Below the pieces are notes generated by a model. That model worked only from the letters and a program-made list of their open reading frames with translations, searched no databases and was not told the origin of the DNA. From assembly GCA_001683845.1 (NCBI GenBank), contig LXQI01000007.1, forward strand, positions 62,001 to 126,000: 64,000 nt of DNA. Reading direction: 5' to 3'. Numbering within the stretch: position 1 is the stretch's first letter; every line of letters starts with the position of its first letter. Shown here in pieces: positions 4,227 to 54,783 of this stretch. The position numbers and the translations under genes are program-made. Source of the DNA: Erythrobacter sp. ANT-B3C2. GTDB taxonomy: Bacteria > Pseudomonadota > Alphaproteobacteria > Sphingomonadales > Sphingomonadaceae.

Positions 4227-5285
4227 TCAGCCCCGGCGCTCCAGCAGCGGGCGCCACCAATCCTCATTCTCAAGATACCACGCCAGCGTCTGCGCGAAGC
4301 CTGCAGTGAAGTCGCGCTGCGGCGCGTAGCCCAGTTCGCTCTCGATCTTGGAGCAATCGATCGCATAGCGCCGATCGTGGCCGGCGCGATCGGTGACGTA
4401 GGTCTTCAGCGATGCGGAAGGATCGCCACGCGCGGCTGGCGCATCGGGGAAGCGGGTGGCGAGGTCCGGCCGCTCCGTAAAGGCGCGGTCCACCGCGGCG
4501 CAGATCTCGTCGATTACCTGCATGTTCGGCAGCTCGGCCCCGCCGCCGATATTGTACATCTCGCCCGGCCGCCCATCCTCGATCACGCGCTCGATGCCGT
4601 AGCAATGATCCTCCACATGCAGCCAGTCGCGCACGTTCATTCCGTCGCCGTAGATCGGCAGGTTGCGCCCCTCCAGGCAGTTGAGGAGGAACAGCGGGAT
4701 CAGCTTCTCAGGGAATTGGTAGGGCCCGTAATTGTTCGAGCAATTGCTGGTGGTGGTCTGCAGGCCAAAGGTGTGGTGATAGGCGCGCACCAGATGATCG
4801 GAGCCCGCCTTGGAGGCCGAGTAGGGTGAGTTCGGCGCATATTGCGTGGCCTCGCTGAAGGCCGGATCCTGCGGGCCGAGCGAGCCGTAGACCTCGTCGG
4901 TCGAGACATGGTGGAAGCGATGCGGGCGCCCGCCATCGTCCAGCCACACCGTGCGCGCCGCCTTCAGCAGGCTGTGCGTGCCAATGACGTTGGTGGAGAC
5001 GAAGGCGTCTGGCCCGGTGATGGAGCGATCGACATGGCTCTCGGCGGCGAAGTGCACGATCGTGTCGATCCCGCGCTGGCGCAGCAGCTGCTCGACCAGT
5101 TCGGTGTCGAGGATATCGCCCTCAACCAGCTCCACTCCCGGGAGGCCGGCGATGTTGGCCGGATTGCCGGCATAGGTGAGCAGGTCGAGCACGGTGATTG
5201 TATCGTCCGGATGCCGTGCCCGCCAGAAATGCACAAAATTGGCGCCGATGAAGCCGGCGCCGCCGGTGACGAGAAGTTCAGCCAT
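4227..5285 (-). CDS. rfbB: dTDP-glucose 4,6-dehydratase
   Basis: '[18 protein letters not shown]', 'HHVSTDEVYGSLG', 'SPYSASKAGSDHLVRAYHHTFGLQTTTSNCSNNYGPYQFPEKLIP'. Confidence 0.95.
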   Translation of the reverse strand: MAELLVTGGAGFIGANFVHFWRARHPDDTITVLDLLTYAGNPANIAGLPGVELVEGDILDTELVEQLLRQRGIDTIVHFAAESHVDRSITGPDAFVSTNVIGTHSLLKAARTVWLDDGGRPHRFHHVSTDEVYGSLGPQDPAFSEATQYAPNSPYSASKAGSDHLVRAYHHTFGLQTTTSNCSNNYGPYQFPEKLIPLFLLNCLEGRNLPIYGDGMNVRDWLHVEDHCYGIERVIEDGRPGEMYNIGGGAELPNMQVIDEICAAVDRAFTERPDLATRFPDAPAARGDPSASLKTYVTDRAGHDRRYAIDCSKIESELGYAPQRDFTAGFAQTLAWYLENEDWWRPLLERRG

Positions 5286-6135
5286 CGTTGTTCAACTCTT
5301 CTAGCATGTGCCGCAAATTGACCCGCCAGTGCGGCGCGGGGCCGCCGAGCAGACGCCAGGTCGCGCTCTTCTCAAGCACGGAATAGGCCGGGCGCTGCGC
5401 GGGGGTGGGGAAATCTTCGGTGGCGATCGGCACGATCTGCGCAGCCGTTTGCAGCAGGCCGAGCGCCAGCGCCTCCTCCTGGATCGCGACGGCGAAATCG
5501 TACCAGCTGGCGACGCCGCTATCGGTGTAGTGATACAGGCCCGTGGCGCCTTGCTGCGCAAGCGCCCAGATCGCCGAAGCCAGCGCAGGCGCCCAGGTGG
5601 GGGTGCCGATCTGGTCGGCGACCACGCGAACCTCCTCGCGCTCGCCCATCAGGCGCAGCATGGTGCGCACGAAATTGGCACCCTGCGCATCGTAGACCCA
5701 GGCGGTGCGGACCACCAACGCATCGGAGCCGGCGGCTTGTTCGCCGGCGAGCTTGCTGCGGCCATAGGCGCCGAGCGGGGCGGTGGAGGCGTCGGGCGGG
5801 AAGGGGCGGCCGGCGGTGCCGTCGAACACGAAATCGGTCGAGACATGCACCAGCTGCGCGCCCGCCTCCGCGGCAGCGGCGGCGAGGTGGCCGACGGCGT
5901 GGCCGTTGATGGCCAGCGCGGCTGCTTCCTCGCTCTCGGCGCGGTCGACGGCGGTATAGGCGGCGGCGTTGAAGATGTGCGTGGGGGCAAGCTCGCTCAC
6001 GAAGCGCTCGACCGCGGCGGCATCGGCAATGTCGAGCGTGGAATGATCGGCGGCGACGGTCTCGGCCCCGGCTGGCGCCGAGGCGAGCAGCGCCCGGCCG
6101 AGTTGCCCGCCCGCTCCGGTGACGAGCACCTTCAT
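5278..6135 (-). CDS. rfbD: dTDP-4-dehydrorhamnose reductase
   Basis: Starts '[18 protein letters not shown]' inside the longer ORF; 'YSVLEKSATWRLLG'. Confidence 0.93.
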   Translation of the reverse strand: MKVLVTGAGGQLGRALLASAPAGAETVAADHSTLDIADAAAVERFVSELAPTHIFNAAAYTAVDRAESEEAAALAINGHAVGHLAAAAAEAGAQLVHVSTDFVFDGTAGRPFPPDASTAPLGAYGRSKLAGEQAAGSDALVVRTAWVYDAQGANFVRTMLRLMGEREEVRVVADQIGTPTWAPALASAIWALAQQGATGLYHYTDSGVASWYDFAVAIQEEALALGLLQTAAQIVPIATEDFPTPAQRPAYSVLEKSATWRLLGGPAPHWRVNLRHMLEELNNDG

Positions 6136-6677
6136 GTGAAGGCCGTGATCTCGGCAAAAGGCTGCGCCGCCTTGTCTTTGGCCGATAGCTGCGGCTCGAT
6201 GCCGTCCAGCGGCCATTCGATGCCGAGCGTGGGGTCGTTCCAGAGCAGGCTGTGCTCGCTCGCCGGATCGTAGAAGGCGGTGCACTTGTAGAGAAAGTCC
6301 GTGCCGTCCTCCAGGCACAGGAAGCCGTGCGCCATGCCCGGCGGGGCCCACAGCATGTGCTTGTTGGCCGCGCTCAACTCGGCCCCGAACCATTTGCCGA
6401 AGCTGGGCGAGGAGCGCCGAACATCCACGATCACGTCGAACACCGCGCCGCTCGCCACCCGCACCAGCTTGCCCTGGGGGTTGGGGCTCTGGAAGTGCAG
6501 CCCGCGCAGCACGCCCCTGGCCGAGCGGCTATGATTGTCCTGCACGAATGCAAAGTCCAGCCCGGCTTCGGCAAAGGCGCGTGCGTTCCAGCTCTCCATG
6601 AAGAAGCCGCGCTCATCGCCGAACACGCGCGGCTTGATCAGCCACGCGCCGTCGATGCCGGTCTCGATCAGTTCCAC
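6132..6677 (-). CDS. rfbC: dTDP-4-dehydrorhamnose 3,5-epimerase
   Basis: '[47 protein letters not shown]'. Confidence 0.95.
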
Positions 6678-7555
6678 CGCGTGCCACCCGCGAGCAACTT
6701 CATCAGATATTCGCCATAACCGGACTTACGCAGCGGCGCGGCGACCCGTTCCAGCTGGGCATCGTCGATGAAGCCCATCCGCCAGGCGAGCTCTTCCGGG
6801 CAGGCGATTTTGAGGCCCTGCCGCTCCTCGGTGATCCGCACGTAATTGCCCGCATCGCTGAGCGAGGCGTGCGTGCCGGTATCGAGCCAGGCATAGCCGC
6901 GGCCCATGATCTCGACATTCAGTTCGCCCGCTTCGAGATACATCCGGTTGAGATCGGTTATCTCCAGCTCGCCGCGTTCGGACGGCTCGATCCGGTGCGC
7001 CATCTCCACCGCGCGGCCATCGTAGAAATAGAGCCCGGTCACCGCATAGTTCGACCGGGGGCGCTCGGGCTTCTCCTCGATCGAGATCGCGCGGCCCGCA
7101 TCGTCGAACTCGACCACGCCGTAGGCCCGTGCATCCTCGACGTGGTAGCCGAACACCGTTGCGCCGGTTTCTCGGCCGGAGGCGCGCTGCAGCAGTTCGG
7201 TCAGTCCGTGCCCGTAGAAGATGTTGTCGCCCAGGATCAGCGAGGAGGGCGCCTCGCCCACGAAATCGGCGCCGATGTGATAGGCTTGCGCCAGCCCGCC
7301 CGGCTCCGGCTGCACCGAATAGCTGAGCGACAGGCCAATCTCCGACCCGTCGCCGAGCAGCGCCTGGAACGCCGGCTGGTCGTGCGGGGTGGTGATGATC
7401 AGGATTTCGTGGATGCCGCTGAGGATCAGAACGCTCAGCGGATAATAGATCATTGGCTTGTCGTAGACCGGCATCAACTGCTTGGAGACGCCCTTGGTCA
7501 GGGGATAGAGCCGCGTGCCCGAGCCTCCGGCCAGGATGATGCCCTTGCGTTCCAT
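6668..7555 (-). CDS. rfbA: glucose-1-phosphate thymidylyltransferase
   Basis: '[45 protein letters not shown]'. Confidence 0.95.
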
Positions 7556-14470: not shown

Positions 14471-15574
14471 TTACAAAAGCAAGAGCGAGAAACCGAGCGC
14501 GGCGACGAAGCTGGCGAGCGTTGCCGTCAGTGTGGGAACGGTGGCGCGCCAGCCCATCTGCATCAGCAGGTCCATCCGGCTGCGCATCGCAGTTGCGGTG
14601 ACCGCCAGCAGCAGCAGGCCCTTTGACACGGTCAACGCACCATCCGAAAGGTTGCGCGGAAGCGGCGCGAGCGAATTGACCGTGACGATCACAAGAAACG
14701 CGATGATGAACCATGGCGGCACGAGACGCCGGAACCACGGGCGGCCTACACCCGATCCGCTGCCTCCGATGGCCAAAGCCACAAGTGCCACCAGCGGGGC
14801 GAGCAGGGCCACCCGCGAGAGCTTGACTACCGTGGCGTAGGACCCGGCGGGATCGGAAAACGCGTAGGCACCCCCGATCGCCTGCGCGACATCGTGGATA
14901 GACGCGCCGATCAGGAAACCGGCCTGCCGGTCGTCGAGGCCGAGCACGGCGGCGAGCAGCGGATAAAGGGACATTGCCAGCGCGCTCGCGAGTGATACGC
15001 CGACCAACGTTAACGCGAATTGCGCCTGGCTCATCCGATCCTTGCCGATCACCCCATAGAGCGCGAGCGCGGCGCTCGCCCCGCAGATCGCCGTAGCTCC
15101 GCCCGCGAGCACGCCGGCATATTGAGTCTGCCCGGCTAGGCGCGCGCCGGCGAGACCGGCGGCGAAGGTGAGCGCCATCACGACGAGCAACGCGGCAAAG
15201 GGTGCCGGGCCGAGTGAGCTGATCTGGCCGATGGTTACCTGCAAGCCAAGCAGCACAATGCCCATCCGCAGGAAACTACGCGCGGCAAAGTCGAGCCCGC
15301 GGTGGGTGCTCGGCTCGCGCGCGACGAAATTCAGCGACAGGCCGACCAGCAGGCCCAGGAGAATGATCGGAAATCCGTAATGCTCAGACAGCCAAGCGGC
15401 GGCTGCTGCGGCCACGCCGCAAGCGACCAGTCCCGGCCAGAGGGTGTTTTCGGTTGGTTGGGCGAGGACCTCCTTCGCCTCTTGCTCGGCAAGGTAGAGT
15501 TCGCCGAACAGATCGCCTCCATTAGGAACAGCATCCCAGTCGATCGGGCGGTCGCGGTTGTCCGACGGTGTCAT
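14471..15574 (-). CDS. YeiH/PSE-family putative sulfate (sulfite) exporter
   Basis: 'LWPGLVACGVAAAAAAWLSEHYGFPIILLGLLVGLSLNF', 'GFLIGASIHDVAQAIGGAYAFSDPAG'. Confidence 0.85.
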   Translation of the reverse strand: MTPSDNRDRPIDWDAVPNGGDLFGELYLAEQEAKEVLAQPTENTLWPGLVACGVAAAAAAWLSEHYGFPIILLGLLVGLSLNFVAREPSTHRGLDFAARSFLRMGIVLLGLQVTIGQISSLGPAPFAALLVVMALTFAAGLAGARLAGQTQYAGVLAGGATAICGASAALALYGVIGKDRMSQAQFALTLVGVSLASALAMSLYPLLAAVLGLDDRQAGFLIGASIHDVAQAIGGAYAFSDPAGSYATVVKLSRVALLAPLVALVALAIGGSGSGVGRPWFRRLVPPWFIIAFLVIVTVNSLAPLPRNLSDGALTVSKGLLLLAVTATAMRSRMDLLMQMGWRATVPTLTATLASFVAALGFSLLLL

Positions 15575-15649
15575 ATGGATCTTCCTTTACGCCTCCGAGC
15601 CGCTATCGTGCAAGCTGCGCCGCGTACGTGGGCGAGTGGGGAGAGAGCG

Positions 15650-16927
15650 ATGGCGACCGAAGGACGGGTGGACGCGACGCAAGAAGCGCCGGAGGATCCG
15701 GGGCTGGTTCGAACCCGCCGGCTCCTTATCGCGTTGCTCTTTTTCGGCACGATCATCAACTACGTCGATCGGCAGGTGCTCTCGCTGCTTAAGCCGACGA
15801 TTTCGGCCGAGTACGGTTGGGGCGACGCCGAATTTGCCCACTTTGCTGCGGCCAGCCAGCTCGCCGCCGCGGGCGCGCTGCTGTTCGTGGGGTGGATTAT
15901 TGATCGTTTCGGGGTTCGTCTCGCCTACGGTGCGGCGGTCGCGCTCTGGTCGGTAGCCGGCATGGCGCACGCGGTTGCCGCAACCGTGACCCAGTTCGTC
16001 AGCGCGCGCGTAGCTCTGATCGCCTTCGAGTCGGTGAACACGCCGGCCGTCGTAAAGGCGGCAGCCGAATACTTGCCGATCCAGCAGCGCACGATCGGCC
16101 TGGGGATCATCAACACCGCCCCCAATATCGGCAACATCCTGGCGCCACTGACCGTGGTGCCGTTTGCGATGGTCTTCGGATGGAAAGCGGCGTTCATCGT
16201 TACCGGCCTGCTCGGCTTTGTGTGGCTGGCATTTTGGATCGCAGGAACCGCGAAGCTGCGTCCACTACCGCGGGCCAGGGCGGCCGAGAAAGGCACACCC
16301 GCGCGCTCATCCTACAGCGAGGCTTTCGCCGATCGCAAGACGTGGGCGATCGCGGGCGCCAAAGCGATTACCGACATGTTTTGGTGGTTCTTCACCTTCT
16401 GGCTTCCCGACTTGTTCAACAAAGTGTTCAATCTCTCGCAGACCGAGCTTGTCGGCCCGACCGCATTGGCATTTTCGCTTGCCGCGCTCGGCGCGCTGTT
16501 TGCCGGCAAACTTTTTGGGGTGCTTCTGGGAACCGGGAGGACAGTCAATTCAGCGCGCAAGACCGGGATGCTGCTGTTCGCCTGCGTGATCGTGCCAATC
16601 CCGCTTGCGTTGTCGGTGGAGAGCGCATGGACCGCAGCTGCGATCATCGGCCTTGGGCTGTTCGCGCACCAGGGCTTCTCGACCAATATCTTCGGCTTTG
16701 CGGCTGATGCGGTCCCTGCGCGGCGCGTCGCGACGGTCATGGCGATCGGTGCGATCGCGGGCAACATCGCCGGCTTCGGTATTCAGGAGGTCACCGGGGT
16801 GCTTCTCTCATCCGGCGTTGGCTACGCACCGCTGTTCTGGGCCGCCGCAGGGGCCTACCTGCTGGCGTTGGCCTGGATCCACTTACTGGTGCCCCGGATC
16901 GTGGCCGAAGACGAAAGGATGGGCTGA
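15650..16927 (+). CDS. MFS transporter, anion:cation symporter/ExuT-like
   Basis: 'LLFFGTIINYVDRQVLSLLKPTISAEYGW', 'AEYLPIQQRTIGLGIINTAPNIGNILAPL'; start chosen at 15650. Confidence 0.85.
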   Translation: MATEGRVDATQEAPEDPGLVRTRRLLIALLFFGTIINYVDRQVLSLLKPTISAEYGWGDAEFAHFAAASQLAAAGALLFVGWIIDRFGVRLAYGAAVALWSVAGMAHAVAATVTQFVSARVALIAFESVNTPAVVKAAAEYLPIQQRTIGLGIINTAPNIGNILAPLTVVPFAMVFGWKAAFIVTGLLGFVWLAFWIAGTAKLRPLPRARAAEKGTPARSSYSEAFADRKTWAIAGAKAITDMFWWFFTFWLPDLFNKVFNLSQTELVGPTALAFSLAALGALFAGKLFGVLLGTGRTVNSARKTGMLLFACVIVPIPLALSVESAWTAAAIIGLGLFAHQGFSTNIFGFAADAVPARRVATVMAIGAIAGNIAGFGIQEVTGVLLSSGVGYAPLFWAAAGAYLLALAWIHLLVPRIVAEDERMG

Positions 16928-17207: not shown

Positions 17208-19541
17208 TCAGTTGATCTGAGCGCGCAGGCTAATCCCAAAGTAGCGATCCGCATCGCGCGCGATCTGCAAGCGCTGGCCTGCGCTAATATTGAGCAGCGC
17301 GTAGCTCTCGTCGGCTATGTTTCGCGCGTGGAACGTTAAGCGATAGCGGTCTTCGGCGTCCGAAAAGCCGAGTGAGGCGTTCCAGATCCCGTAGGGGTCG
17401 ATCAGGCCCTGTTCGCCAAGGTCCGAGAACTGCTTGCTGGCGTGGCGGTAGTCGGTGTCCAAATACGTCCTGAAGCGACCGAGATCGGCCTCGTAGCTGC
17501 CGCCCAATGTGTAGACGAACTTTGGCGCCAGCGGCAGCTGCGTGCCGTCGCGCGCGTCAGGCGCATTGGTCAGCGGATTGGGGTTGAACCGCTTGACCCG
17601 TGCATCGGCGGACGCAGCGCTCGCGCGCAAGGTCAGTCCTTCGACCGGAACCACCAGCAGATCGGCTTCGAAGCCATCGGACTTCACTGTGCCCGCGTTG
17701 GTGAGGTTGGTCACGACGGCGCCGTTCAGCGTCACGAAGTTGTTGGCCTGGAAGCCGTCATATTCGACGGTGAAAGCCGCGACGTTGAGCTGCACACGGT
17801 TGTCGAGAAACTGCGTCTTGGCGCCGATCTCGAACGCGTCAGAAGTTTCCTCATCGATGGGGATCGCGTTGACGGGGGCGGTGTGGTTGAAGAAGACGTT
17901 GAAAGCGGGCCCCTTATATCCGCGCGTGTAGCTGCCGTAGAGCATGACGTCGTCGAGCGGCGTAAGCTGCAACACAGCCTTGCCCGAGAGGTTGCCGTTG
18001 TTGCTGCTGCCCCGCGAGGTATTGGTGCCGTTGCCGCCCGAAGCGAGCGTCCCGCCCGCCGGGTTGGCCGAGATACCGGGGCCGGTAGCCGGCGCGCCGT
18101 TCGTCGCGTTCACGCCCGGCGCGCGGGTGTGAATGAACGACAGATCGTCCCAAGTATAGCGCAACCCGCCCGTTACGGCGATCAGATCGCTCAGACGATA
18201 AGTGGCCTGCCCGAACACCGCATAGTTCGATGAACTGACATCGCTTTGGGAGGTTGCGGTCGGGAACAGCGTGCTGACCGTATCGGCGATGTTGCACGGG
18301 CGCCCACCGGAGGGGGCAACCGGAAGCGTCGAGCTCGCGCACGTGATATCGCGGCGGGTGAAAACCTGCGAATTGTCCGAATGCCAGAGTAAGCCGCCGA
18401 CCTGGTAGAAGAACGGAAGGGCAGGATCCGACGCGATCCGTGCCTCCAGCGAGATTTGCCGCGTTTCGACCAGGCCGTTGTCGTGCAGCTCGGCGGTGCC
18501 GACGAGCGCGCGCGGAAGAAAGTCGCCTTCGCGCAGCTCACGGTTTCTCCAGTCGCGATAGCCGTAGATCACGCTGAGCGTGTGGGAATCGGTCAGGTCA
18601 AAGTCGGCGTTGGCGGTCAGGCTCCACTGCGTATCCCTGGTCTGGGTGACGAGGTTGTGGTTCACAAAGCGTTGGTTGAGCCCTTGAGCGACGCCACCTG
18701 GAAGGCCCAGTTCGGCGTCAAGCACCGCGCCGCGGCTGACTGTGGTCACGTCGGCGCAGCAGTCGTCGTCGGCGCGGAAGTAGTCGGCGATGAACCGCAG
18801 TCGGGCGATCGCCCCATCGTAGTCGACGATGCCGCGGGCGCCGTAATGCTCGTAGCCGTTCACGTTGTTGCGTTCGCCACCGAAGACATTGGTGATGTTG
18901 CCGTCGTAAGACCCGTAGAAGCCGGTTACGCGTGCGGTGAGGTCCATGCCGATCGGTCCGGAGAGCGCGCCACGGAACCGATATTCGTCGCCTTCGAACC
19001 ACTCGGCGCGAGCCTCAGCCTCAAAGCTGTCGCTGCCGCCCTTGGAGATGATGTTGACGAGACCCGCGCTTGCGTTCTTACCGAACAGCGTGCCCTGAGG
19101 CCCGCGCAGCACCTCGAGCCGCTCGATGTCGACCAGGTCCATGAAGGCCTGCCCCGAGCGGCTTAGTACGATGCCGTCGACGACGGTGGACACGCTCGGC
19201 TCGGCGGCGATCGAGAAGGTGATGGTTCCCACTCCGCGCATCACAATCGCACTATTGGCGCTCGTGGTGCCCTTGCGGAAGGTGACCGAGGGAACGAGCT
19301 GGCTCAGTCCCTCGAGGCTCGTTGTGCCCGCCGCCTCGAGCCGCTCGGACGTGAGCGCGGTGATCGAGATCGGCACGTCCTGGACGTTTTCCGCGACCCT
19401 CTGCGCGGTGACGATGATCTCCTGAATGCCCGCCTCGTTGGCTGGCTCGGCGCTGACATCCTGCGCCGCTGCGGGTGTGGCCAGAATTGTAGCGAGCCCG
19501 GCGAACGTCAGCGCGCTCGTGGCGCGAAGCATGCAATTCAT
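17208..19541 (-). CDS. TonB-dependent receptor
   Basis: TonB-box-like 'IQEIIVTAQR', plug 'VDIERLEVLRGPQGTLFGKNASAGLVNIISK', C-terminal beta-strand ending in F..SLRAQIN. Confidence 0.92.
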   Translation of the reverse strand: MNCMLRATSALTFAGLATILATPAAAQDVSAEPANEAGIQEIIVTAQRVAENVQDVPISITALTSERLEAAGTTSLEGLSQLVPSVTFRKGTTSANSAIVMRGVGTITFSIAAEPSVSTVVDGIVLSRSGQAFMDLVDIERLEVLRGPQGTLFGKNASAGLVNIISKGGSDSFEAEARAEWFEGDEYRFRGALSGPIGMDLTARVTGFYGSYDGNITNVFGGERNNVNGYEHYGARGIVDYDGAIARLRFIADYFRADDDCCADVTTVSRGAVLDAELGLPGGVAQGLNQRFVNHNLVTQTRDTQWSLTANADFDLTDSHTLSVIYGYRDWRNRELREGDFLPRALVGTAELHDNGLVETRQISLEARIASDPALPFFYQVGGLLWHSDNSQVFTRRDITCASSTLPVAPSGGRPCNIADTVSTLFPTATSQSDVSSSNYAVFGQATYRLSDLIAVTGGLRYTWDDLSFIHTRAPGVNATNGAPATGPGISANPAGGTLASGGNGTNTSRGSSNNGNLSGKAVLQLTPLDDVMLYGSYTRGYKGPAFNVFFNHTAPVNAIPIDEETSDAFEIGAKTQFLDNRVQLNVAAFTVEYDGFQANNFVTLNGAVVTNLTNAGTVKSDGFEADLLVVPVEGLTLRASAASADARVKRFNPNPLTNAPDARDGTQLPLAPKFVYTLGGSYEADLGRFRTYLDTDYRHASKQFSDLGEQGLIDPYGIWNASLGFSDAEDRYRLTFHARNIADESYALLNISAGQRLQIARDADRYFGISLRAQIN

Positions 19542-19651
19542 GGAAACCCTCCCTGAAATTCGCTCGGCAAAACAGTACCTTGCGAAGCTTAAGATCGGCG
19601 GGTTTTGTCACCCGCTCGCTTGGTCCATTGATTTGCGTAAAACGACACGAT

Positions 19652-19668
19652 ATGTCAAGCGGTGTCAT
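19652..19668. promoter_or_regulatory. candidate LacI-family operator in the TBDR/GH31 divergent intergenic region
   Basis: ATGTCAAGCGGTGTCAT imperfect palindrome, overlapping GACAcgataTGTC at 19644-19656. Confidence 0.4.
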
Positions 19669-19689
19669 ACTTCTAGGACAGGCCGCATT

Positions 19690-21699
19690 ATGCAGCTGCG
19701 CGAGTGCCACAATAGCAAGGGCTTCGAACTCGTGGTGGCGGACCAGGTTGTGCTGCGCCATGCACCTGATTGTCCGGCGGTGGCCACCGCGCGAGGATGC
19801 CCGGACATCGACATGGTTCGCGGCAACTTCCGGATCGAGGATGCACCGTTCGACCGGGTCGTTGCCGATGGCTGGCGGCACGGTGGAGCCGGCGCCGAGT
19901 TGCTCGAGCAAGGAAGGCCGGTCGCGCTGCTCGAATGGGACGAGCGGTCGCTCCGCGTCCGCGCGCTGACGGCAGGCCATGATCGTCTTTGGGTGCGGTT
20001 TCACGCCGAACCGGGCGAGGCCGTGTGGGGCGGGGGCGAGCAGATGAGCTACCTTGCTCTCAACGGCCGGCGTTTCCCGATGTGGACCAGCGAGCCCGGC
20101 GTCGGCCGGGACAAGTCGACCGATCTCACCCGCGCGATGGACGAAGCCGGCATGGCAGGCGGCGACTACTGGACGAGCAACTACCCCCAGCCGACGTTCG
20201 TCACCTCGCGCTGGCTGGCGGTCCACCTCGACGCGAGCTGCTATAGCGCACTCGATTTCACTGATCCGACCCGTCACGAGGTCGAAGTCTGGACGGGAGA
20301 TGCGCGGTTCGAATTCTTCGCCGCCGACGGCCCGCAACCACTTGTGAGCCAGATGGCCGACCGTTTCGGCCGCCAGGCCGCGCTTCCGGATTGGGCGATC
20401 ACCGGCGCCATCATCGGCCTCAAGTCGGGTGCATCGAGTTTTGACCGGCTCGAGCGGTTCATCGAGGCCGGCGCAGCGGTCTCGGGCCTGTGGTGCGAGG
20501 ATTGGGCGGGCATTCGCGAAACCAGCTTCGGCCGCCGCCTTTTCTGGGATTGGCACATTGGCAAGCGCAGCGAAGCCCGATTTCCCGACCTCCGCCGCCG
20601 CTTAGCCAAGCTCGACGAGCGCGGCATACGGTTCCTCGGCTACTCCAATCCCTATCTCGCCAACGACGGCGAGCTGTTCGTCGAGGCGCGCGAGGGTGGG
20701 CACCTCTGTCTCCAGCGAGGCAGCGGCAAGGTTTACCTGGTCGATTTTGGCGAGTTCGACTGCGGAGTGGTCGACTTCACCCGGGATGAAACTCGCGAGT
20801 GGTTCGCCGAGCGCGTGTTGGGTCGCGAGCTGCTCGACGCGGGCATGGCCGGTTGGATGGCCGATTTCGGCGAATACCTGCCGGTCGACCTGGCGCTCGC
20901 CGACGGCTCGGATCCGATGGTCATGCACAACCGCTGGCCGGTGCTGTGGGCCGAGGTGAACGCGCGCGCGCTCGAGAGCCGCGGCAAGACCGGCGATGCG
21001 GTGTTCTTCATGCGCGCCGGCTTCTCTGGAGTGCAGGAGCATTGTCCCCTGCTGTGGGCGGGTGACCAGTGTGTCGATTTCACTCGGCACGACGGGATCG
21101 GCACGGTGATCACCGCGGCACTGTCGGCGGGCTTAGTGGGCAATGCATACAGCCATTCGGACTGCGGCGGCTACACCTCACTCCTTGGCCACGTACGCAG
21201 CGAAGAGCTGATGATGCGCTGGTGCGAGCTCGCCGCGTTCACGCCGGTGATGCGCAGCCACGAAGGCAACCGACCCGATGACAACCTGCAGTATGACAGC
21301 ACACCCGAACTGCTCGCGTGCTTTGCGAAGTGGAGCCGGGTCCACGCCGCGCTTGCGCCTTACATTCGCGCGCTGAGCGACGAGGCAGCCACTAGCGGAT
21401 TGCCGCTGCAGCGGCCTTTGTTTCTCGAGTTTCCGGACGATTCTGAGCTGTTTGCGGTGCAAGACCAGTACTTTTATGGGCCTGACCTGATCGTAGCACC
21501 AGTGATTGAGGAAGGCGCAGCCGCCCGGGAGGTCATCCTGCCGGGCGATGCGCATTGGCGGCATGTCTGGACCGGGGCGGACTTCGCCCCGGGCACGCAT
21601 GCAATTGCCGCGCAGATCGGTCAGCCGCCGGTGTTTTACCGCCCTGGCAGCCTGTACGCAGAGCTGTTCGCAGCCTTACCTGAGGCGCTTGGCGGATGA
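19690..21699 (+). CDS. GH31 alpha-glycosidase, probable sulfoquinovosidase (YihQ/SmoI-like)
   Basis: 'GGGEQMSYLALNGRRFPMWTSEPGVGRDK', 'WMADFGEYLPVD' nucleophile and 'WAGDQCVDF' acid/base regions; K/E/R/W/Y at the recalled sulfonate-binding positions. Confidence 0.88.
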   Translation: MQLRECHNSKGFELVVADQVVLRHAPDCPAVATARGCPDIDMVRGNFRIEDAPFDRVVADGWRHGGAGAELLEQGRPVALLEWDERSLRVRALTAGHDRLWVRFHAEPGEAVWGGGEQMSYLALNGRRFPMWTSEPGVGRDKSTDLTRAMDEAGMAGGDYWTSNYPQPTFVTSRWLAVHLDASCYSALDFTDPTRHEVEVWTGDARFEFFAADGPQPLVSQMADRFGRQAALPDWAITGAIIGLKSGASSFDRLERFIEAGAAVSGLWCEDWAGIRETSFGRRLFWDWHIGKRSEARFPDLRRRLAKLDERGIRFLGYSNPYLANDGELFVEAREGGHLCLQRGSGKVYLVDFGEFDCGVVDFTRDETREWFAERVLGRELLDAGMAGWMADFGEYLPVDLALADGSDPMVMHNRWPVLWAEVNARALESRGKTGDAVFFMRAGFSGVQEHCPLLWAGDQCVDFTRHDGIGTVITAALSAGLVGNAYSHSDCGGYTSLLGHVRSEELMMRWCELAAFTPVMRSHEGNRPDDNLQYDSTPELLACFAKWSRVHAALAPYIRALSDEAATSGLPLQRPLFLEFPDDSELFAVQDQYFYGPDLIVAPVIEEGAAAREVILPGDAHWRHVWTGADFAPGTHAIAAQIGQPPVFYRPGSLYAELFAALPEALGG

Positions 21700-22709
21700 G
21701 CGGACGGTCGAACATCCGCGATGTTGCCGCGTGCGCGGGTGTGGCGGTGAAAACCGTCAGCCGAGTGCTGAATGGCCATGCCTATGTCAGTGAGGCGACC
21801 AGAAAGCGGGTCGAAGAAGCGATGGACGCGCTCGACTTTCGCCCCAGCATCGCGGCGCGCATCCTGTCAGGCGCCAAATCCAACCAGATCGCGCTGATTT
21901 ACGACAATCACAGCCCATACTACACCTTCCAGATTCAGAAGGGCTGTTGGGAACATTGCCATGCGCACGGCACTCGCCTGCTCGCACAGCCGATCGACGT
22001 CGACGATCCGGCGGTTGGCGCTCAAGTGCGCGGGCTGATCAGCGAAACCCATGTCGACGGTATCATCCTATCCTCGCCGGTGACCGACTGCGCCCCCGTC
22101 CTCGCGGTGCTCGACATGCTCGACATTCCCTTCGTTCGCATCTCGCCAGGGACCAACCACGCGCTCACCAGCTCGGTGTTCATGGACGACGTGCAGGCGG
22201 GCGACGATATGACGACCCACCTCGTCAACCACGGTCATCGACGCATTGGTTTCATCAAGGGCCACCCGAGCCACATGGCGACCGGGGAGCGACTCCACGG
22301 CTATCGCAAGGCGCTCGACCGCGCGGGGATCGGCTTCGAGCCGGCGCTGGTCATCGACGGCGAGTTCGACTTCGACAGCGGGGTGCGCGCCGCTGCGGTG
22401 CTGCTCGATCTGCCCAAGGCGCCGACGGCGATCTTCGCTTCGAACGACGACATGGCCGCCGGCGTGCTCGCCGAAGCGCACGGCCGGGCGATCGAGGTGC
22501 CGACCGAGCTATCGGTGGCCGGGTTCGATGATACCACGCTCGCGCGCACCGTCTGGCCGCCCCTGACAACGATCCACCAGCCGATGGCGGAGCTGGCGCG
22601 TACCGCGGCAGAGATTCTCATCACCGGCGGCGAGATCAGCCACCGCCGCTTGCCGCACCAGTTGGTCGAGCGCGGCTCTGTCGCGCCACCACCCAGGAGA
22701 ATTGCATGA
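21696..22709 (+). CDS. LacI-family transcriptional regulator
   Basis: 'NIRDVAACAGVAVKTVSRVLNGHAYVSEATRKRVEEAMDALDFRPSIAARILSG'. Confidence 0.95.
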   Translation: MSGRSNIRDVAACAGVAVKTVSRVLNGHAYVSEATRKRVEEAMDALDFRPSIAARILSGAKSNQIALIYDNHSPYYTFQIQKGCWEHCHAHGTRLLAQPIDVDDPAVGAQVRGLISETHVDGIILSSPVTDCAPVLAVLDMLDIPFVRISPGTNHALTSSVFMDDVQAGDDMTTHLVNHGHRRIGFIKGHPSHMATGERLHGYRKALDRAGIGFEPALVIDGEFDFDSGVRAAAVLLDLPKAPTAIFASNDDMAAGVLAEAHGRAIEVPTELSVAGFDDTTLARTVWPPLTTIHQPMAELARTAAEILITGGEISHRRLPHQLVERGSVAPPPRRIA

Positions 22710-23620
22710 GCCTTCTGCCCGCCCCGCCCGCCGGCCGCTCTCTTGGGCAATCCGGGGTCGGCATGTCGCCGATCGCCTGGGGCATGTGGCGGCTCGCCGA
22801 TGATAGGCGGAGCGCGGGCGAGGCGGCGCAGCTGGTCAACGCTGCGCTCGATGCGGGGATCACGTTGTTTGACACAGCCGACATTTACGGTTTCGACGGA
22901 GTAAGTGGCTTCGGCGACGCCGAAGCGCTGCTGGGTGAAGTGCTCGCGGCCGAACCCGGGTTGCGCCGCCGGATGGTTCTGGCGAGTAAGGGTGGCATCC
23001 GGCCACCGTTGCCATACGATCAGTCGCCAGCATACCTCGCCGAGGCAATTGAAGGGTCGCTGAGCCGCCTGCAGGTCGAGACGATCGACCTATGGCAGAT
23101 CCACCGGCCTGACATCCTTTCCCACCCTCAAGAGGTCGCCCGCACGCTTGAGGACGCGCTCTCCGCCGGCAAGATCCGCGCACTTGGAGTGTCCAACTTC
23201 ACGACCGCACAGGCCGAGGCGTTAGTGGCGTTTCTCGACACGCCGCTTGCCGCGACGCAGCTCGAAATCAGCCCGCTGCGGATTGATAGCTTCGCCAACG
23301 GGGATCTCGATCAGGCGATGCGCCTAGGCCTTACTGCGCTAGCATGGTCGCCGCTGGGCGGCGGACGGCTGCTCGCGCCCAAGACCAACCGCGAGCGTGC
23401 GACCGCCGCCGAACTCGACCGGATCGCGGAGGAGCAGGGGGTGAGCCGCAGCGTCGCAGCCTATGGCTGGCTGATGGCGCACCCCGCGGGGATCGTCCCC
23501 CTCGTCGGCTCGCAAAATCCGGGCAGGATAGCCGAGGCGGCTGGAGCGCTGGCGATGCGATGGACCCGGCAGGATTGGTATGCGGTGCTCGTCGCCGCCC
23601 GAGGAGAAAAGCTACCATGA
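22706..23620 (+). CDS. aldo/keto reductase (SmoB-like candidate)
   Basis: D-Y-K-H tetrad context: 'FDTADIYG', 'LASKGGI', 'WQIHRPD'. Confidence 0.9.
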   Translation: MSLLPAPPAGRSLGQSGVGMSPIAWGMWRLADDRRSAGEAAQLVNAALDAGITLFDTADIYGFDGVSGFGDAEALLGEVLAAEPGLRRRMVLASKGGIRPPLPYDQSPAYLAEAIEGSLSRLQVETIDLWQIHRPDILSHPQEVARTLEDALSAGKIRALGVSNFTTAQAEALVAFLDTPLAATQLEISPLRIDSFANGDLDQAMRLGLTALAWSPLGGGRLLAPKTNRERATAAELDRIAEEQGVSRSVAAYGWLMAHPAGIVPLVGSQNPGRIAEAAGALAMRWTRQDWYAVLVAARGEKLP

Positions 23621-24702
23621 CGAAACAGTGCGAGATCGCGTGGTTTTCCGCGTTGTGCGATGACGATTACGAGTTTCTCGGCGTCCCCGATCCCGCTCTA
23701 CGGTCGAGTTGGGAGCATTGCCGCAATATCGTCCTCCGAGCGGAGGAGGGTGGGTTCGACAATATCTTGCTTCCATCAGGCTACCAATTGGGCCTCGACA
23801 CAACGGTCTTCGCCGCGGCGATCGCACCCATGCTCACGCGGATGAAGCTCCTGTGGGCGACCCGCATCGGGGAGGACTGGCCGCCGCAGCTCGCCCGCCG
23901 GATCGCAACCCTGGACCGCATCCTCGGCCCCAATATGGAAGGGACCGCTGGGCGGCTCAACGTCAACATCATCTCTTCCGACATGCCCGGGCAGACAATG
24001 GCGGGCGGCCCGCGCTATGCCCGCGCAACCGAGGTGATGAAGATCGTTCGCGCCTTGCTCAATGGCGAGAGCATTGACCACCAGGGCGAGCACTACCAGC
24101 TCAAGCTCGATCCCCCGCGGATCAGCACGATCAGCGGCAAATGCCCGCCGTTCTATTTCGGTGGCCTCAGCCACGAGGCGCGCGAGTGCGCGGCAGAGGC
24201 ATGCGACGTCTACCTGATGTGGCCTGACAGGATGGAACAGGTACGCGAGATCATAGCTGACATGACCGCGCGTGCGGCGAAGTACGGCCGCACGCTTCGG
24301 TTTGGCTACCGCGTCCATGTCATCGTGCGCGAGACCGAGGACGAGGCACGGGCCTACGCCGACCGGCTGCTGTCCAAGCTCGACGACGAGAAGGGCCGCG
24401 CGATTCGCGAAGCCTCACTCGATGCAAAGAACTACGGCGTCCAGCGCCAGGCCGAGCTGCGCGGTGCAGCCGACGGCGACGGCTTTGTTGAGGACAACCT
24501 CTGGACCGGTATCGGACGCGCGCGTTCGGGCTGCGGATCGGCAATCGTGGGAACGCCCGATCAGGTCCTGGCCAAGCTGCGCGCCTATCAGGCCGAAGGG
24601 ATCGAGGCGTTCATCCTGTCCGGATACCCGCATACCAACGAATGCGACATGTTCGCCCGCTACGTGCTGCCGCATATCGAACACGGCCCGCTGACGTTCT
24701 GA
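23617..24702 (+). CDS. LLM-class flavin-dependent (alkane)sulfonate monooxygenase, SsuD/SmoC-like
   Basis: 'IAPMLTRMKLLWATRIGEDWPPQLARRIATLDRILG', 'GRLNVNIISSDMPGQ', 'IVGTPDQVLAKLRAYQAEGIEAFILSGYPHTNE' typical of SsuD-like proteins. Confidence 0.9.
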   Translation: MTKQCEIAWFSALCDDDYEFLGVPDPALRSSWEHCRNIVLRAEEGGFDNILLPSGYQLGLDTTVFAAAIAPMLTRMKLLWATRIGEDWPPQLARRIATLDRILGPNMEGTAGRLNVNIISSDMPGQTMAGGPRYARATEVMKIVRALLNGESIDHQGEHYQLKLDPPRISTISGKCPPFYFGGLSHEARECAAEACDVYLMWPDRMEQVREIIADMTARAAKYGRTLRFGYRVHVIVRETEDEARAYADRLLSKLDDEKGRAIREASLDAKNYGVQRQAELRGAADGDGFVEDNLWTGIGRARSGCGSAIVGTPDQVLAKLRAYQAEGIEAFILSGYPHTNECDMFARYVLPHIEHGPLTF

Positions 24703-24767: not shown

Positions 24768-26291
24768 ATGAGCGATAGACCCGCGTCTGCCCCCCCTGAG
24801 CCTGTTGAAGCACGCGAGGGCACGACATACGACCTCGCTGTGATCGGCGGCGGGGTGAACGGCTGCGGCGTGGCGCGCGATGCCGCGGGGCGCGGCGCGG
24901 AAGTTCTTTTGCTCGAGCAGAACGACCTCGCCTCGGGTACTTCGTCGGCCTCGACGAAGCTGATCCATGGAGGCTTGCGCTACCTCGAGCATTACGAGTT
25001 CGGCCTTGTGCGTGAGAGCCTGTCCGAGCGTGAGCGATTGTGGAGCATCGCCCCGCACATCGCCTGGCCGATGCGTTTCGTGCTGCCGCACGTACCGGGC
25101 GTGCGCCCCCGCTGGCTCGTGCGCGCGGGGCTGTTCCTCTACGACCACATCGGCGGGCGAAAGCGGCTTCCGGCGACCGAGACCATTGCGCTCTATACCC
25201 ATCCCGCCGGCGCGCCGCTCAAGAGGGATTTCACCAGCGCCTTCGTCTATTCCGACTGCTGGGTCGACGACGCGCGGCTGGTCGTGCTGAATGCCCGCGA
25301 TGCAGCCGACCGCGGTGCGGATATCCGCACCCGCTGCCGGGTGACACGGGTACGGCGCGTTGACGCGGGGTGGTCAATCGATGCCGGCGGCGAAACGTTT
25401 AGCGCCCGCGCTGTCGTTAATGCCGCGGGCCCCGGTGTGGTCGATCTGCTTTCAACCAGTAAACTGCAACCGGACAAGGCCCTCCGGCTGGTTCGCGGAT
25501 CGCACATCGTGGTGTCCAAGCTGTTCGACCACCAATATGCCTATTTCTTCCAGTTGCCGGATCTCCGCATCTTCTTCGCAATTCCTTATGAGCAGGATTT
25601 CACCCTTATCGGAACGACGGATGTCGATCACGATGGCGGACCGATCGCGGCGAGCGCAGAAGAAATCGCTTATTTGTGCGAAGGCGCGAGCCGCTTCTTC
25701 CGCCAACGGATCGCCCCCGCCGACGTAGTCTGGACCTTTTCTGGAGTGCGACCGCTGATCGACGACGGTTCAGGTCGGCCCGAGGCAGCAACGCGCGGGT
25801 ACGATCTCGACCTGTCGGACGAGAGCGAAGGTGCGGCGCTGCTGTCGATCTACGGGGGCAAAATCACCTCCTATCGCCACCTGGCCGAGGATGCGGTCGG
25901 CAAACTTGCGTCCCGGCTCCCCATTTTGCGCGGAAAAGGGTGGACGGGCCTCGAAGCACTGCCGGGTGGGAATTTTCCGGTCGACGCGCTGCCGCAGGTC
26001 GAGGCCGAGTTTCGCCAGCAATTCCCGTTCTTAGGCGATACTGCCGGCCGGCTCGTCCGCGCTTACGGAATGACTGCCTTCGCGATCTTCGGTGGCGTCA
26101 GCAGCTGGTCGGACTGTGGTCGGGATTTCGGGCATGGATTCACCAAGCGTGAGCTCGACTATCTTGTGCGACACGAGTGGGCGCAGACGGCAGACGACGT
26201 GCTGTGGCGCCGGACAAAACTGGGCCTGCGCTTTAGCCCCGAGCAGCGGCAGCGATTGGTCAACCACATGACCGAGGAGCTTGTCATTTAG
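24768..26291 (+). CDS. glpD: FAD-dependent glycerol-3-phosphate dehydrogenase
   Basis: 'DLAVIGGGVNGCGVARDAAGRGAEVLLLEQNDLASGTSSASTKLIHGGLRYLEHYEFGLVRESLSERE'. Confidence 0.92.
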   Translation: MSDRPASAPPEPVEAREGTTYDLAVIGGGVNGCGVARDAAGRGAEVLLLEQNDLASGTSSASTKLIHGGLRYLEHYEFGLVRESLSERERLWSIAPHIAWPMRFVLPHVPGVRPRWLVRAGLFLYDHIGGRKRLPATETIALYTHPAGAPLKRDFTSAFVYSDCWVDDARLVVLNARDAADRGADIRTRCRVTRVRRVDAGWSIDAGGETFSARAVVNAAGPGVVDLLSTSKLQPDKALRLVRGSHIVVSKLFDHQYAYFFQLPDLRIFFAIPYEQDFTLIGTTDVDHDGGPIAASAEEIAYLCEGASRFFRQRIAPADVVWTFSGVRPLIDDGSGRPEAATRGYDLDLSDESEGAALLSIYGGKITSYRHLAEDAVGKLASRLPILRGKGWTGLEALPGGNFPVDALPQVEAEFRQQFPFLGDTAGRLVRAYGMTAFAIFGGVSSWSDCGRDFGHGFTKRELDYLVRHEWAQTADDVLWRRTKLGLRFSPEQRQRLVNHMTEELVI

Positions 26292-51097: not shown

Positions 51098-51600
51098 TCA
51101 GGCATAGGCGACGGTGGTGCGGGTGGCAGCACGGCGACGCATTGCTGCGCCGATCGCGCCGAAACCGATGATCATCATCGCCCAGGTGGCCGGCTCCGGC
51201 ACCGCCGAGATCATCCCGGAGGCAACCGGGAGCGCAGCCGAGTAATTGCCTTGCATGCCGTTGATTTCATGGGGCGTCCCCACACCCGCATTCGGATCGA
51301 CAAAGGCGCCGTGCAGCACGATCTCGCGGAAATCCAGCGGGAGCAGATCGGCACCATTGAAGCCGCCGCAAAGATCGAAGTGTCCGTAAGGTCGAACATC
51401 ATCGAGTAATTGAGGATCCCGCCGGGAGTATTTCCGATGCCAGGCAGATTCAGGATAATTGGCCCGTAGAACGGCACGCCCTCGGCAACCTCGATAAAGC
51501 CGTCACCGTCGGTGTCTGCAGAGGGAGGGGGGGTTAACCGAGTTGATCGGCACGCCCATCCCATTGAAGCGCCCATGGATATGCGCGACATGCGGCCTGG
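51098..51600 (-). pseudogene. decayed CHRD-type PEPxxWA-CTERM protein (frameshifted, 5' truncated)
   Basis: Coherent protein is spread over three frames: 'VAHIHGRFNGMGVPINSVNPP' / 'SADTDGDGFIEVAEGVPFYGPIILNLPG' / 'GGFNGADLLPLDFREIVLHGAFVDPN...VPEPATWAMMIIGFGAIGAAMRRR'. Confidence 0.75.
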
Positions 51601-51944
51601 CTCACGCCCTTGCCGCCATGGCGCGACATGTAGCGGGCGATCTCGCCGCCCCCCATCGAAAATCCAACCAGCGCCACGTCCTCGCTCGCGCCGGTGGCCT
51701 CCATCACATCGGCCAGATCATCGGCGAAGGTGTCGTAATCATAACCCGCGGGCGGCTGGTCGGATCGGCCGAAACCGCGCCGGTCATAGGCGATCGCCTG
51801 GAAGCCGGCCTCCGCCAAGGCGATCATCACCGGGTCCCAGCTGTCGGCCGAAAGCGGCCAGCCGTGGATCAGCACCACCGGCCGCCCGCTGCCGAGTGTC
51901 TTCACATAGAGCTGGGTGCCATCGCGCGCGTCGATCCGGTTCAT
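51534..51944 (-). pseudogene. 3'-truncated alpha/beta hydrolase
   Basis: 'MNRIDARDGTQLYVKTLGSGRPVVLIHGWPLSADSWDPVM...GFSMGGGEIARYMSRHGGKGVSQAA' then abrupt junction; ~136 aa versus ~270 expected for family. Confidence 0.75.
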
Positions 51945-52049
51945 ACAGCGTCCGCCTTTTGGAAATGTTGAGGTTGCCCTTCCAACCCGCGCCTCGCCAA
52001 TCGGTTGCCCACCATCGCCACTCATCAGGACTAGCCGAATCCAACACGC

Positions 52050-52064
52050 GAACATATATGGAAC
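52050..52064. promoter_or_regulatory. LexA (SOS) box, alphaproteobacterial type
   Basis: GAACATATATGGAAC = GAAC-N7-GAAC (GTTC-N7-GTTC on minus strand). Confidence 0.7.
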
Positions 52065-53338
52065 AAATGGATCGCCCCAAAACCTCCAGCGGAACCCCCC
52101 ATTCCATCATGGAAAAGCTGGCGGTGCTGGCCGATGCGGCGAAGTACGACGCCTCCTGCGCCTCCTCCGGCACCGCCAAGCGCAACAGCGCTGGCAGCGC
52201 CAAGGGTATCGGCTCGACCGAGGGCATGGGCATCTGCCACGCCTACGCGCCCGATGGCCGCTGCATCTCGCTGCTCAAGATTTTGCTGACCAACCACTGC
52301 ATCTTCGATTGCCACTATTGCATCAACCGCAAGAGCTCGAACGTGCGCCGCGCGCGCTTCACCCCGGCCGAGGTGGTCGACCTCACGCTCAGCTTCTATC
52401 GCCGCAACTATATCGAAGGGCTGTTCCTCTCCTCGGGCATCATCAAGAGCTCCGATTACACGATGGAACAGCTGGTCGAGGTCGCGCGATCACTGCGCGA
52501 GGACCACCACTTCCGCGGCTACATTCACCTCAAGACCATCCCCGATGCCGATCCGCAGCTGGTCCACCAGGCCGGGCTCCATGCGGATCGCGTCTCGATC
52601 AATGTCGAACTGCCCACCGATGCCGGCCTCGCCCGCCTCGCGCCGGACAAGGACGCACGCGGCATCGAAGGCGCAATGGGCGGGATGAAGATGGCGATCA
52701 AACAGGCGCGCGACGAGACCAAGCGCTTCAAGCACGCCCCCCGCTTCGCCCCCGCCGGGCAGTCGACGCAAATGATCATCGGCGCCGATGCCGCCAGCGA
52801 TGCCGATATCGTGGGCAAGGCCAGCCGCCTTTACGATGGGTTCGGCCTGCGCCGCGTCTATTACTCCGCCTTCAGCCCCATTCCGGATGCCAGCGCGGTG
52901 CTGCCATTGAAGCGCCCGCCGCTGATGCGCGAACACCGGCTGTACCAGTCCGATTGGCTGATGCGCTTCTACGGCTACACTTCAGGCGAGGTGATGCAGG
53001 CCACCGGCGATGATGGGATGCTGCCGCTCGATATCGATCCCAAGCTCGGCTGGGCGCTGAAGTTTCGCGAGCAATTCCCGGTGGATGTGAACCGTTCCTC
53101 ACGCGAGATGTTGCTGCGCGTGCCAGGGTTGGGGGTGAAGGCGGTGAACCGGATCATCACCTCGCGCCGCCACCGCACGCTGCGGCTGGAGGATGTGGGC
53201 AAGCTCACCGTCTCGCTCACCAAGGTGCGCCCGTTCATCGTCACCGTCGACTGGCGCCCCACCTTGCTGATCGACCGGGGCGATCTGCGCCGCCTGCTCG
53301 CGCCGAAGAAAGAGCAGCTGGAGCTGTTCGCCGCATGA
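52058..53338 (+). CDS. putative DNA modification/repair radical SAM protein
   Basis: 'LLTNHCIFDCHYCINRKSSNVRRARFTPAEVV' CxxxCxxC cluster; C-terminal HhH 'LRVPGLGVKAVNRIITSRR'. Start may be 52067 if the SOS box is used. Confidence 0.9.
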   Translation: MEQMDRPKTSSGTPHSIMEKLAVLADAAKYDASCASSGTAKRNSAGSAKGIGSTEGMGICHAYAPDGRCISLLKILLTNHCIFDCHYCINRKSSNVRRARFTPAEVVDLTLSFYRRNYIEGLFLSSGIIKSSDYTMEQLVEVARSLREDHHFRGYIHLKTIPDADPQLVHQAGLHADRVSINVELPTDAGLARLAPDKDARGIEGAMGGMKMAIKQARDETKRFKHAPRFAPAGQSTQMIIGADAASDADIVGKASRLYDGFGLRRVYYSAFSPIPDASAVLPLKRPPLMREHRLYQSDWLMRFYGYTSGEVMQATGDDGMLPLDIDPKLGWALKFREQFPVDVNRSSREMLLRVPGLGVKAVNRIITSRRHRTLRLEDVGKLTVSLTKVRPFIVTVDWRPTLLIDRGDLRRLLAPKKEQLELFAA

Positions 53339-54783
53339 ACGCGCTCCAGCATGTCCGGCTTGGCACCTACTACGTGGCGCAATTGCCCGAACAGGACGAT
53401 TTCGAGTTCTGGCGCGATCGGGCGCGCGCGCTCGTCCAGTGCGACGTGCCACCCGATCGCATCGCCTGGGTGCCCCCCGGCGGCAATGGCGATCTGTTCA
53501 CTCATGGCGAGCGCCGTGCCCCCGTGCCCCCCGCCGATGCCGCGATGGTGCGCGCCAGCAAGCCCTTCATCCAACTCGCCAGAAGCGCGATCTGCCACAG
53601 CGACCCCGATCGCTTCGCGCTGCTCTACCGCCTGCTCTGGCGCCACCAGGCCAACCCGAAAGTGCTCGAAGACCGCGCCGATGGCGACGTGCGCCGGCTG
53701 GACGAACTCGCCCGCCATGTGCGGCGCGACATTCACAAGATGCGCGCCTTCGTCCGCTTCCGCCTGGTTGAAGATGAGGCGGCCCAAGGCGGCGAGAGCG
53801 AGGAGCATTACGTCGCCTGGTTCGAGCCCGAGCACCACATCCTGCGCGCCAATGCCGGCTTTTTCACCCGCCGCTTCGCCAATATGCGCTGGTCGATCCT
53901 CACCCCGAAAGGCTCGCTCCACTGGGACACGCAGGCACTGGCGGAAGGCCCCCCGGCCGAACGCGCCGATGCCCCCGCCGGCGATCCGGTGGAGGCCCTG
54001 TGGCGCAAATATTACGCCTCCACCTTCAACCCCGCGCGTTTGAAGGTCGGGGCGATGCTGAAGGAAATGCCCCGCAAATATTGGAAGAACATGCCCGAAA
54101 CATCGCTCATCCCCGAGCTGGTCGCGGGCGCACAGGCGCGGGAGGCGGCCATGGTCGATGCAGGGTCAATCGAACCGAGCGAGCGCCCCGATACGCTCGA
54201 CGCCATCGCCAGCGCGATTCATTCCTGCCGCCGCTGCCCGATCGGCGAGCTGGAAAACCAGGCGGTGATGGGCGAGGGGCCGCGCCGTGCTGCGCTGATG
54301 GTGGTGGGCGAACAGCCCGGCGATCAGGAGGATCTCGCCGGCAAGCCCTTCGTCGGCCCCGCCGGGCAGGTGCTCGATCGTTTCCTGCAACAGGCCGGGA
54401 TCGACCGCGAGCAAACCTACGTCACCAACGCGGTCAAGCATTTCAAATTCACCCAGCGTGGTAAGCGCCGACTGCACCAATCGCCCACCGCCAAGGAGAT
54501 CGACATCTGCCGCTGGTGGCTGGAGGGCGAGCGTGCGCTGGTGCAGCCCCGGCTGGTGCTGGCGCTGGGCGCCAGCGCCGCGCGCGGCCTGCTCGGCAAG
54601 ACGGTGAGCATCTCCAGGGTGCGCGGCGCCGCGCAGATGCTGGAGGATGGCAGCGAACTGTGGGTCACCGCGCATCCATCCTATCTGCTGCGGCTCGAAG
54701 GCCCCGCACGCGAGGAGCAGGAGCGCCTGTTCGCCGCCGATCTCGCCGCGGTGGCCGAGCGACTGGCCGAGCTGGCGCAATGA
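53335..54783 (+). CDS. DUF4130 - UdgX-family uracil-DNA binding protein fusion
   Basis: 'VVGEQPGDQEDLAGKPFVGPAGQVLDRFLQQAG', 'VTNAVKHFKFTQRGKRRLHQSP' (UdgX R-loop with His), 'AHPSYLLR'. Confidence 0.9.
   Translation: MNALQHVRLGTYYVAQLPEQDDFEFWRDRARALVQCDVPPDRIAWVPPGGNGDLFTHGERRAPVPPADAAMVRASKPFIQLARSAICHSDPDRFALLYRLLWRHQANPKVLEDRADGDVRRLDELARHVRRDIHKMRAFVRFRLVEDEAAQGGESEEHYVAWFEPEHHILRANAGFFTRRFANMRWSILTPKGSLHWDTQALAEGPPAERADAPAGDPVEALWRKYYASTFNPARLKVGAMLKEMPRKYWKNMPETSLIPELVAGAQAREAAMVDAGSIEPSERPDTLDAIASAIHSCRRCPIGELENQAVMGEGPRRAALMVVGEQPGDQEDLAGKPFVGPAGQVLDRFLQQAGIDREQTYVTNAVKHFKFTQRGKRRLHQSPTAKEIDICRWWLEGERALVQPRLVLALGASAARGLLGKTVSISRVRGAAQMLEDGSELWVTAHPSYLLRLEGPAREEQERLFAADLAAVAERLAELAQ

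Follow-up and report, generated by a model that had tools for sequence, protein, structure and literature searches.

The window, the whole stretch of 64,000 nucleotides that was analysed, encodes a protein which is almost certainly a cytoplasmic, retaining GH31 alpha-sulfoquinovosidase (SQase) of the K/E/R/W/Y type, predicted from sequence and modelled structure to catalyse the first step of a sulfo-SMO (sulfo-ASMO) pathway whose other genes surround it. Such an enzyme releases the sulfosugar sulfoquinovose (SQ) from the sulfolipid headgroups of plants and algae. The gene neighbourhood settles the SQase function better than the residue signature does. Coordinates of all features are collected in Table 1.

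Table 1. Sulfoquinovose gene cluster of the window, with active-site codons and operator-like sites (positions refer to the window).
Feature	Position	Strand	Remarks
YeiH-family permease, candidate sulfite/sulfate exporter	14471..15574	-	PF03601
Second operator-like site GTTGTCCGACGGTGTCATA	15557..15575	+	between YeiH and MFS genes; overlaps the assumed YeiH start codon
MFS transporter, predicted inner-membrane importer	15650..16927	+	425 aa; PF07690
TonB-dependent outer-membrane receptor	17208..19541	-	PF00593/PF07715; divergent from SQase
Operator-like site TATGTCAAGCGGTGTCATA	19651..19669	+	between receptor and SQase genes; ends 20 bases upstream of the SQase start
GH31 alpha-sulfoquinovosidase (SmoI/YihQ-type)	19690..21699	+	669 aa, uninterrupted ORF
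K245	20422..20424	+	AtSQase K245, YihQ Q262 (MAFFT); sulfonate-pocket position
E270	20497..20499	+	AtSQase E270, YihQ Q288 (MAFFT)
R283 and W286 in GRRLFWDW	20536..20547	+	AtSQase R283/W286, YihQ R301/W304; codons start at 20536 and 20545
D392 (WMADFGEYLP), predicted catalytic nucleophile	20863..20865	+	AtSQase D388, YihQ D405
D459 (WAGDQ), predicted acid/base	21064..21066	+	AtSQase D455, YihQ D472
Y495	21172..21174	+	AtSQase Y491, YihQ Y508
LacI-family regulator	21696..22709	+	PF00356/PF13377; start overlaps SQase stop by 4 bases
Aldo/keto reductase, SmoB/SquF-like 6-dehydroglucose reductase	22706..23620	+	PF00248; best PDB 7bbz/7bc1, E 1e-50
Flavin-dependent SQ monooxygenase, SmoC/SquD-like	23617..24702	+	PDB 7olf E 1e-109, 7oh2 E 5e-108
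GlpD, aerobic glycerol-3-phosphate dehydrogenase	24768..26291	+	NF009906, 697 bits

No N-terminal signal peptide is apparent in the SQase. An alternative start of its reading frame at 19426 (757 aa) was discarded and 19690 preferred. The protein was aligned with MAFFT together with the solved Agrobacterium SQase (sequence from the HMMER alignment to PDB 5OHY), YihQ of E. coli MG1655 (NC_000913.3, L082) and 80 homologues taken from genome contigs. No gaps occur near any pocket or catalytic position. A first-pass annotation had aligned K, E, R/W and Y to YihQ by eye, and this assignment proved exact, including 20422 (K) and 20497 (E) as codon starts. Neither K nor E is displaced from the sulfonate pocket. 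The K/E/R/W/Y set, for which Q/Q/R/W/Y is the alternative, stands in register with the solved SQases, and the catalytic motifs WMADFGEYLP and WAGDQ are kept, as had been read, with their aspartates aligned to those of YihQ. The residue sets QQRWY and KERWY were reportedly defined for SQases in a paper of 2018.

Because K/E/R/W/Y is identical in 82/82 sequences other than YihQ, including all 80 homologous loci, and does not vary across an alignment of 30 sequences that are 56-76% identical to the window protein, the agreement is, judged by these sequences, not due to chance. YicI, the GH31 alpha-xylosidase of E. coli, aligns with F, a gap and D at the positions of K, E and R and with F at that of the tyrosine; the W and the two catalytic Asp are retained.

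The best NCBIfam match of the protein is NF007746 (863 bits), titled simply 'alpha-glucosidase'. Taken at its word, this title would make the protein a general GH31 alpha-glucosidase, with a neighbouring monooxygenase acting on unrelated sulfonates. However, NF007746 (PRK10426) fits YihQ-like proteins, and every solved relative that matches better than E 1e-40 is an SQase. The six closest distinct sequences of the PDB search, among them Agrobacterium 5ohs/5ohy (E~1e-241), 8r56, 6pnr and YihQ, are SQases throughout (E 1e-241 to 1e-178), while the next GH31 enzyme follows at 2e-40, a gap of ~140 orders of magnitude. With K/E/R/W/Y invariant and an SQ-monooxygenase-type gene linked in 46/46 loci, the alpha-glucosidase reading is very improbable.

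The structural comparison points in the same direction. An AlphaFold2 model, built from a 30-sequence alignment, reached a mean pLDDT of 84.1 and a pTM of 0.87, a few segments of the catalytic loops (458-469, 496-501) being modelled with low confidence. Foldseek placed the solved SQases 5ohs, 7ofx, 5ohy, 8r56, 6pnr, 5oht and 5aed at TM 0.90-0.95 (5ohs 0.94), above every other GH31 enzyme listed (TM ≤0.72; YicI-type ~0.7). The GH31 fold with the aspartate pair of WMADFGE and WxGDQ is found by alignment, by PF01055 and by Foldseek. PDB ranking, model and operon context support sulfoquinovosidase over generic alpha-glucosidase, which had been the preference of the first-pass annotation.

The named residues define binding of the sulfonate and not of the rest of the sugar, and a sulfofucose-degrading bacterium is described (PMC12421959). 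An SQase-fold glycosidase for a different C6-sulfonated or anionic glycoside, e.g. a sulfofucoside, would fit both points. We consider this hardly credible in view of 54% full-length identity to an SQase with crystal structures that include SQ substrates, and of a reductase and a monooxygenase that match those of the SQ pathway.

The genes for SQase, LacI-family regulator, aldo/keto reductase and monooxygenase follow one another with SQase first, each stop overlapping the next start (21696, 22706 and 23617). The reductase is closest in the PDB to 7bbz/7bc1, which we take to be Agrobacterium SmoB. The best matches of the monooxygenase, 7olf and 7oh2, bear generic record names and are presumably the SQ monooxygenases of Rhizobium and Agrobacterium; alkanesulfonate monooxygenases (7jv3 at 7e-61, 1m41) match more weakly. 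For the monooxygenase, an ORF start at 23344 (452 aa) was dropped; translation probably begins at ATG 23617, which has GGAG ahead of it. The SmoC/SquD- and SmoB/SquF-like genes lie within a 10-gene window, as used for sulfo-SMO clusters in PMC13372026.

A SmoA/SsuE flavin reductase is not present in the cluster, and a profile search found no SsuE homologue (TIGR03567) in the 91%-complete genome. An SsuE-type flavin reductase is reported as optional and is also absent from the cluster of N. aromaticivorans (PMC9594981). Two PF01613 flavin reductases are encoded elsewhere in the genome. With neither a flavin reductase in the cluster nor an SsuE homologue in the genome, the electron donor of the monooxygenase, a supplier of reduced flavin, is therefore only presumed. 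GlpD, encoded downstream of the monooxygenase, probably serves the use of glycerol freed from SQ-glycerol. Genes for glycerol kinase (GlpK, contig C12) and glucokinase (contig C27) are located outside the cluster.

On the other side of the SQase gene, the receptor shows a signal peptide and a TonB-box-like EIIVTAQR at its N-terminus. The YeiH gene faces away from the MFS gene. For the latter, an ORF start at 15302 (541 aa) was dropped; ATG 15650 is preceded by a purine-rich stretch and fits the homology to L003, which sets in at codon 118 of the longer ORF. A scan of the cluster for sigma-70 promoters found nothing, and terminator-like matches in the cluster occur at chance level, the best being an 11-pair stem 3' of the receptor gene (17181-17157). 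Elsewhere, the window holds genes for dTDP-rhamnose type sugar synthesis (4227-7555, minus strand; PF16363, PF04321, PF00483), and a DNA polymerase III alpha-type protein of 1200 aa (55077-58679, plus strand) adjoined by genes for a DUF4130/uracil-DNA-glycosylase fusion and a radical-SAM protein (51512-54783).

Conservation was followed in 62 sphingomonad loci (L002-L063; Blastomonas, Tsuneonella, Novosphingobium, Erythrobacter, Rhizorhabdus and others) and 18 Rhizobiales loci (L064-L081; Microvirga, Aureimonas, Jiella and others). The sphingomonad loci have the gene arrangement of the window in common. Context was counted in the 46 sphingomonad loci with at least 6.5 kb before and at least 5.5 kb after the SQase. 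Receptor, LacI regulator, aldo/keto reductase and monooxygenase are each found in 46/46, the MFS transporter in 42, YeiH in 35 and GlpD in 26. GlpD, being close by in no more than these 26 of the 46 loci, has a weaker link to the cluster. In two loci (L026, L049) the YeiH-MFS pair is located on the opposite side of the cluster, still near.

In the Rhizobiales loci, no homologue of the LacI, receptor or MFS gene adjoins the SQase gene. Four of them have a monooxygenase (51-53% identity) and a reductase (37-39%). Most SQases of this set probably feed another SQ pathway, as no homologue of the window monooxygenase is nearby. Within the window's own family, a close monooxygenase (E ≤ 1e-100) was found in 40 of 151 sampled genomes and is missing in two members of the window's genus; the trait is therefore patchy.

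One copy of an operator-like site stands between the genes for receptor and SQase, another between those for YeiH and MFS transporter. The second copy, read as TGTCCGACGGTGTCATA, is located at 15559-15575 before the MFS gene. A site upstream of SQase, called with ≤2 mismatches in 12 fixed positions, is present in 62/62 sphingomonad vs 0/18 Rhizobiales loci. Most core positions are invariant among 63 sequences and the sequence just outside is near random; the information content amounts to 1.3-2.0 bits over nearly all columns and mostly to <0.5 in the flanks. A genome-wide search for TGTCNNNCGGTGTCAKA with ≤1 mismatch returned two places only, those before the SQase and MFS genes, and the reversed control pattern occurred nowhere in the genome. 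With three mismatches allowed, 7 sites were found in the window vs 7.6 expected, i.e. chance numbers; the evidence for the site rests on exact match, conservation and the strict genome-wide search. Under the strict pattern, a copy near the MFS start is seen in 24 of the 51 loci with an MFS match.

Judging by these sequences, the site is probably the operator of the LacI-family protein. On the minus strand its TGTCAA part becomes TTGACA, and the receptor promoter may have its -35 box here. A different SQ-type cluster is located on plasmid pABRDHK22 of Novosphingobium sp. EMRT-2 (L095, 2819-13086). It comprises a K/E-type GH31 SQase (54% identity to that of the window), a long-chain-fatty-acid-CoA ligase, a TonB-dependent receptor, a LysR regulator and a phytanoyl-CoA-dioxygenase-family protein, with a reductase and a monooxygenase 72% and 84% identical to those of the window. 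The ligase hints that the sulfolipid is used as a whole. In this cluster TATGTCTCACGTTGTCATA stands ahead of the reductase gene, yet no LacI gene is nearby.

Whether receptor and MFS transporter serve the pathway is a separate matter. They might import something else, with SQ entering by another route. By its library matches, the receptor is similar to siderophore receptors. Moreover, the receptors beside SQase in L002-L063 fall into two sequence types, ~77% or ~42% identical to that of the window, and MFS identity ranges from 38 to 86% among loci. However, all 46 loci have the receptor, whose gene and that of SQase have the operator-like site in common, and the MFS gene has its own copy in the window and, by the strict pattern, in 24/51 loci. 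Overall, import of another compound is rather unlikely. As a side observation, the enzymes remain similar across the two receptor types, which looks like an exchange of the receptor.

The following route can be drawn. TonB-dependent receptor and MFS transporter would import SQ glycosides. Residues, fold and context strongly indicate that the SQase hydrolyses alpha-sulfoquinovosides, the most likely substrate being sulfoquinovosyl glycerol. A double displacement is predicted, with D392 as putative nucleophile, D459 as putative acid/base and the sulfonate presumably held by K245, E270, R283, W286 and Y495. By homology, the flavin-dependent monooxygenase is expected to cleave the C-S bond of sulfoquinovose, yielding sulfite and 6-dehydroglucose, and the aldo/keto reductase to convert the latter to glucose. 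Glycerol could be used by GlpD and the glycerol kinase encoded elsewhere in the genome. The YeiH permease, going by family name and position, is a possible exporter of sulfite or sulfate. Repression of the cluster is probably due to the LacI-family regulator acting via the two sites of the form TGTCnnnCGGTGTCATA, if regulator and sites are correctly paired.

The sulfo-SMO pathway has been reported for Novosphingobium aromaticivorans and Agrobacterium (PMC9594981; PMC12890257). The Agrobacterium tumefaciens SQase SmoI (PDB 5OHS, 5OHY, 7OFX) shares 54% identity, pocket and catalytic residues with the window protein (TM 0.94), but the Agrobacterium pathway reportedly goes with an ABC transporter for SQ-glycerol (PMC9594981), where the window encodes a TonB-dependent receptor along with an MFS transporter. 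E. coli YihQ (PDB 5AED, 5OHT; 42% identity) agrees in fold, catalytic residues and R/W/Y. In contrast, it has Q262/Q288 in place of K245/E270 and belongs to sulfo-EMP sulfoglycolysis and not to C-S cleavage. The SquD/SquF sulfo-ASMO (sulfo-SMO) cluster of N. aromaticivorans (Liu et al. 2021, as reviewed in PMC9594981) comes from the same bacterial order and resembles that of the window in its monooxygenase and reductase families and in having no SsuE in the cluster; this likeness was drawn via the review, the sequence itself lying outside the compared loci.

The pathway and the enzyme type are already known, as is their occurrence in sphingomonads (PMC13372026), and we make no claim of novelty for receptor and operator. 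In the literature searched, outside of which lies the founding key paper on N. aromaticivorans, neither a link between sulfoquinovose and a TonB-dependent receptor in the sense meant here nor, apart from work on E. coli, a LacI operator for sulfoquinovose was found. There is about an even chance that the cluster represents a sphingomonad version of sulfo-SMO, in which SQ glycosides enter via TonB-dependent receptor plus MFS transporter in place of an ABC importer and a dedicated LacI protein acts at two copies of TGTCnnnCGGTGTCATA. If true, TonB-dependent uptake of the sulfolipid headgroup and the TGTCnnnCGGTGTCATA operator would be undescribed.

Sulfoquinovose production is put at ~10 billion tons a year (PMC10755693), and sphingomonads such as Novosphingobium belong to its active degraders in water (PMC13372026). 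Placement in the SQ pathway corrects the database name, which is only 'alpha-glucosidase', for the window protein and its 62 sphingomonad relatives. From the conservation of receptor, transporter and operator-like site, a hypothesis open to test can be formed on how these bacteria may take up and sense the sulfolipid headgroup.
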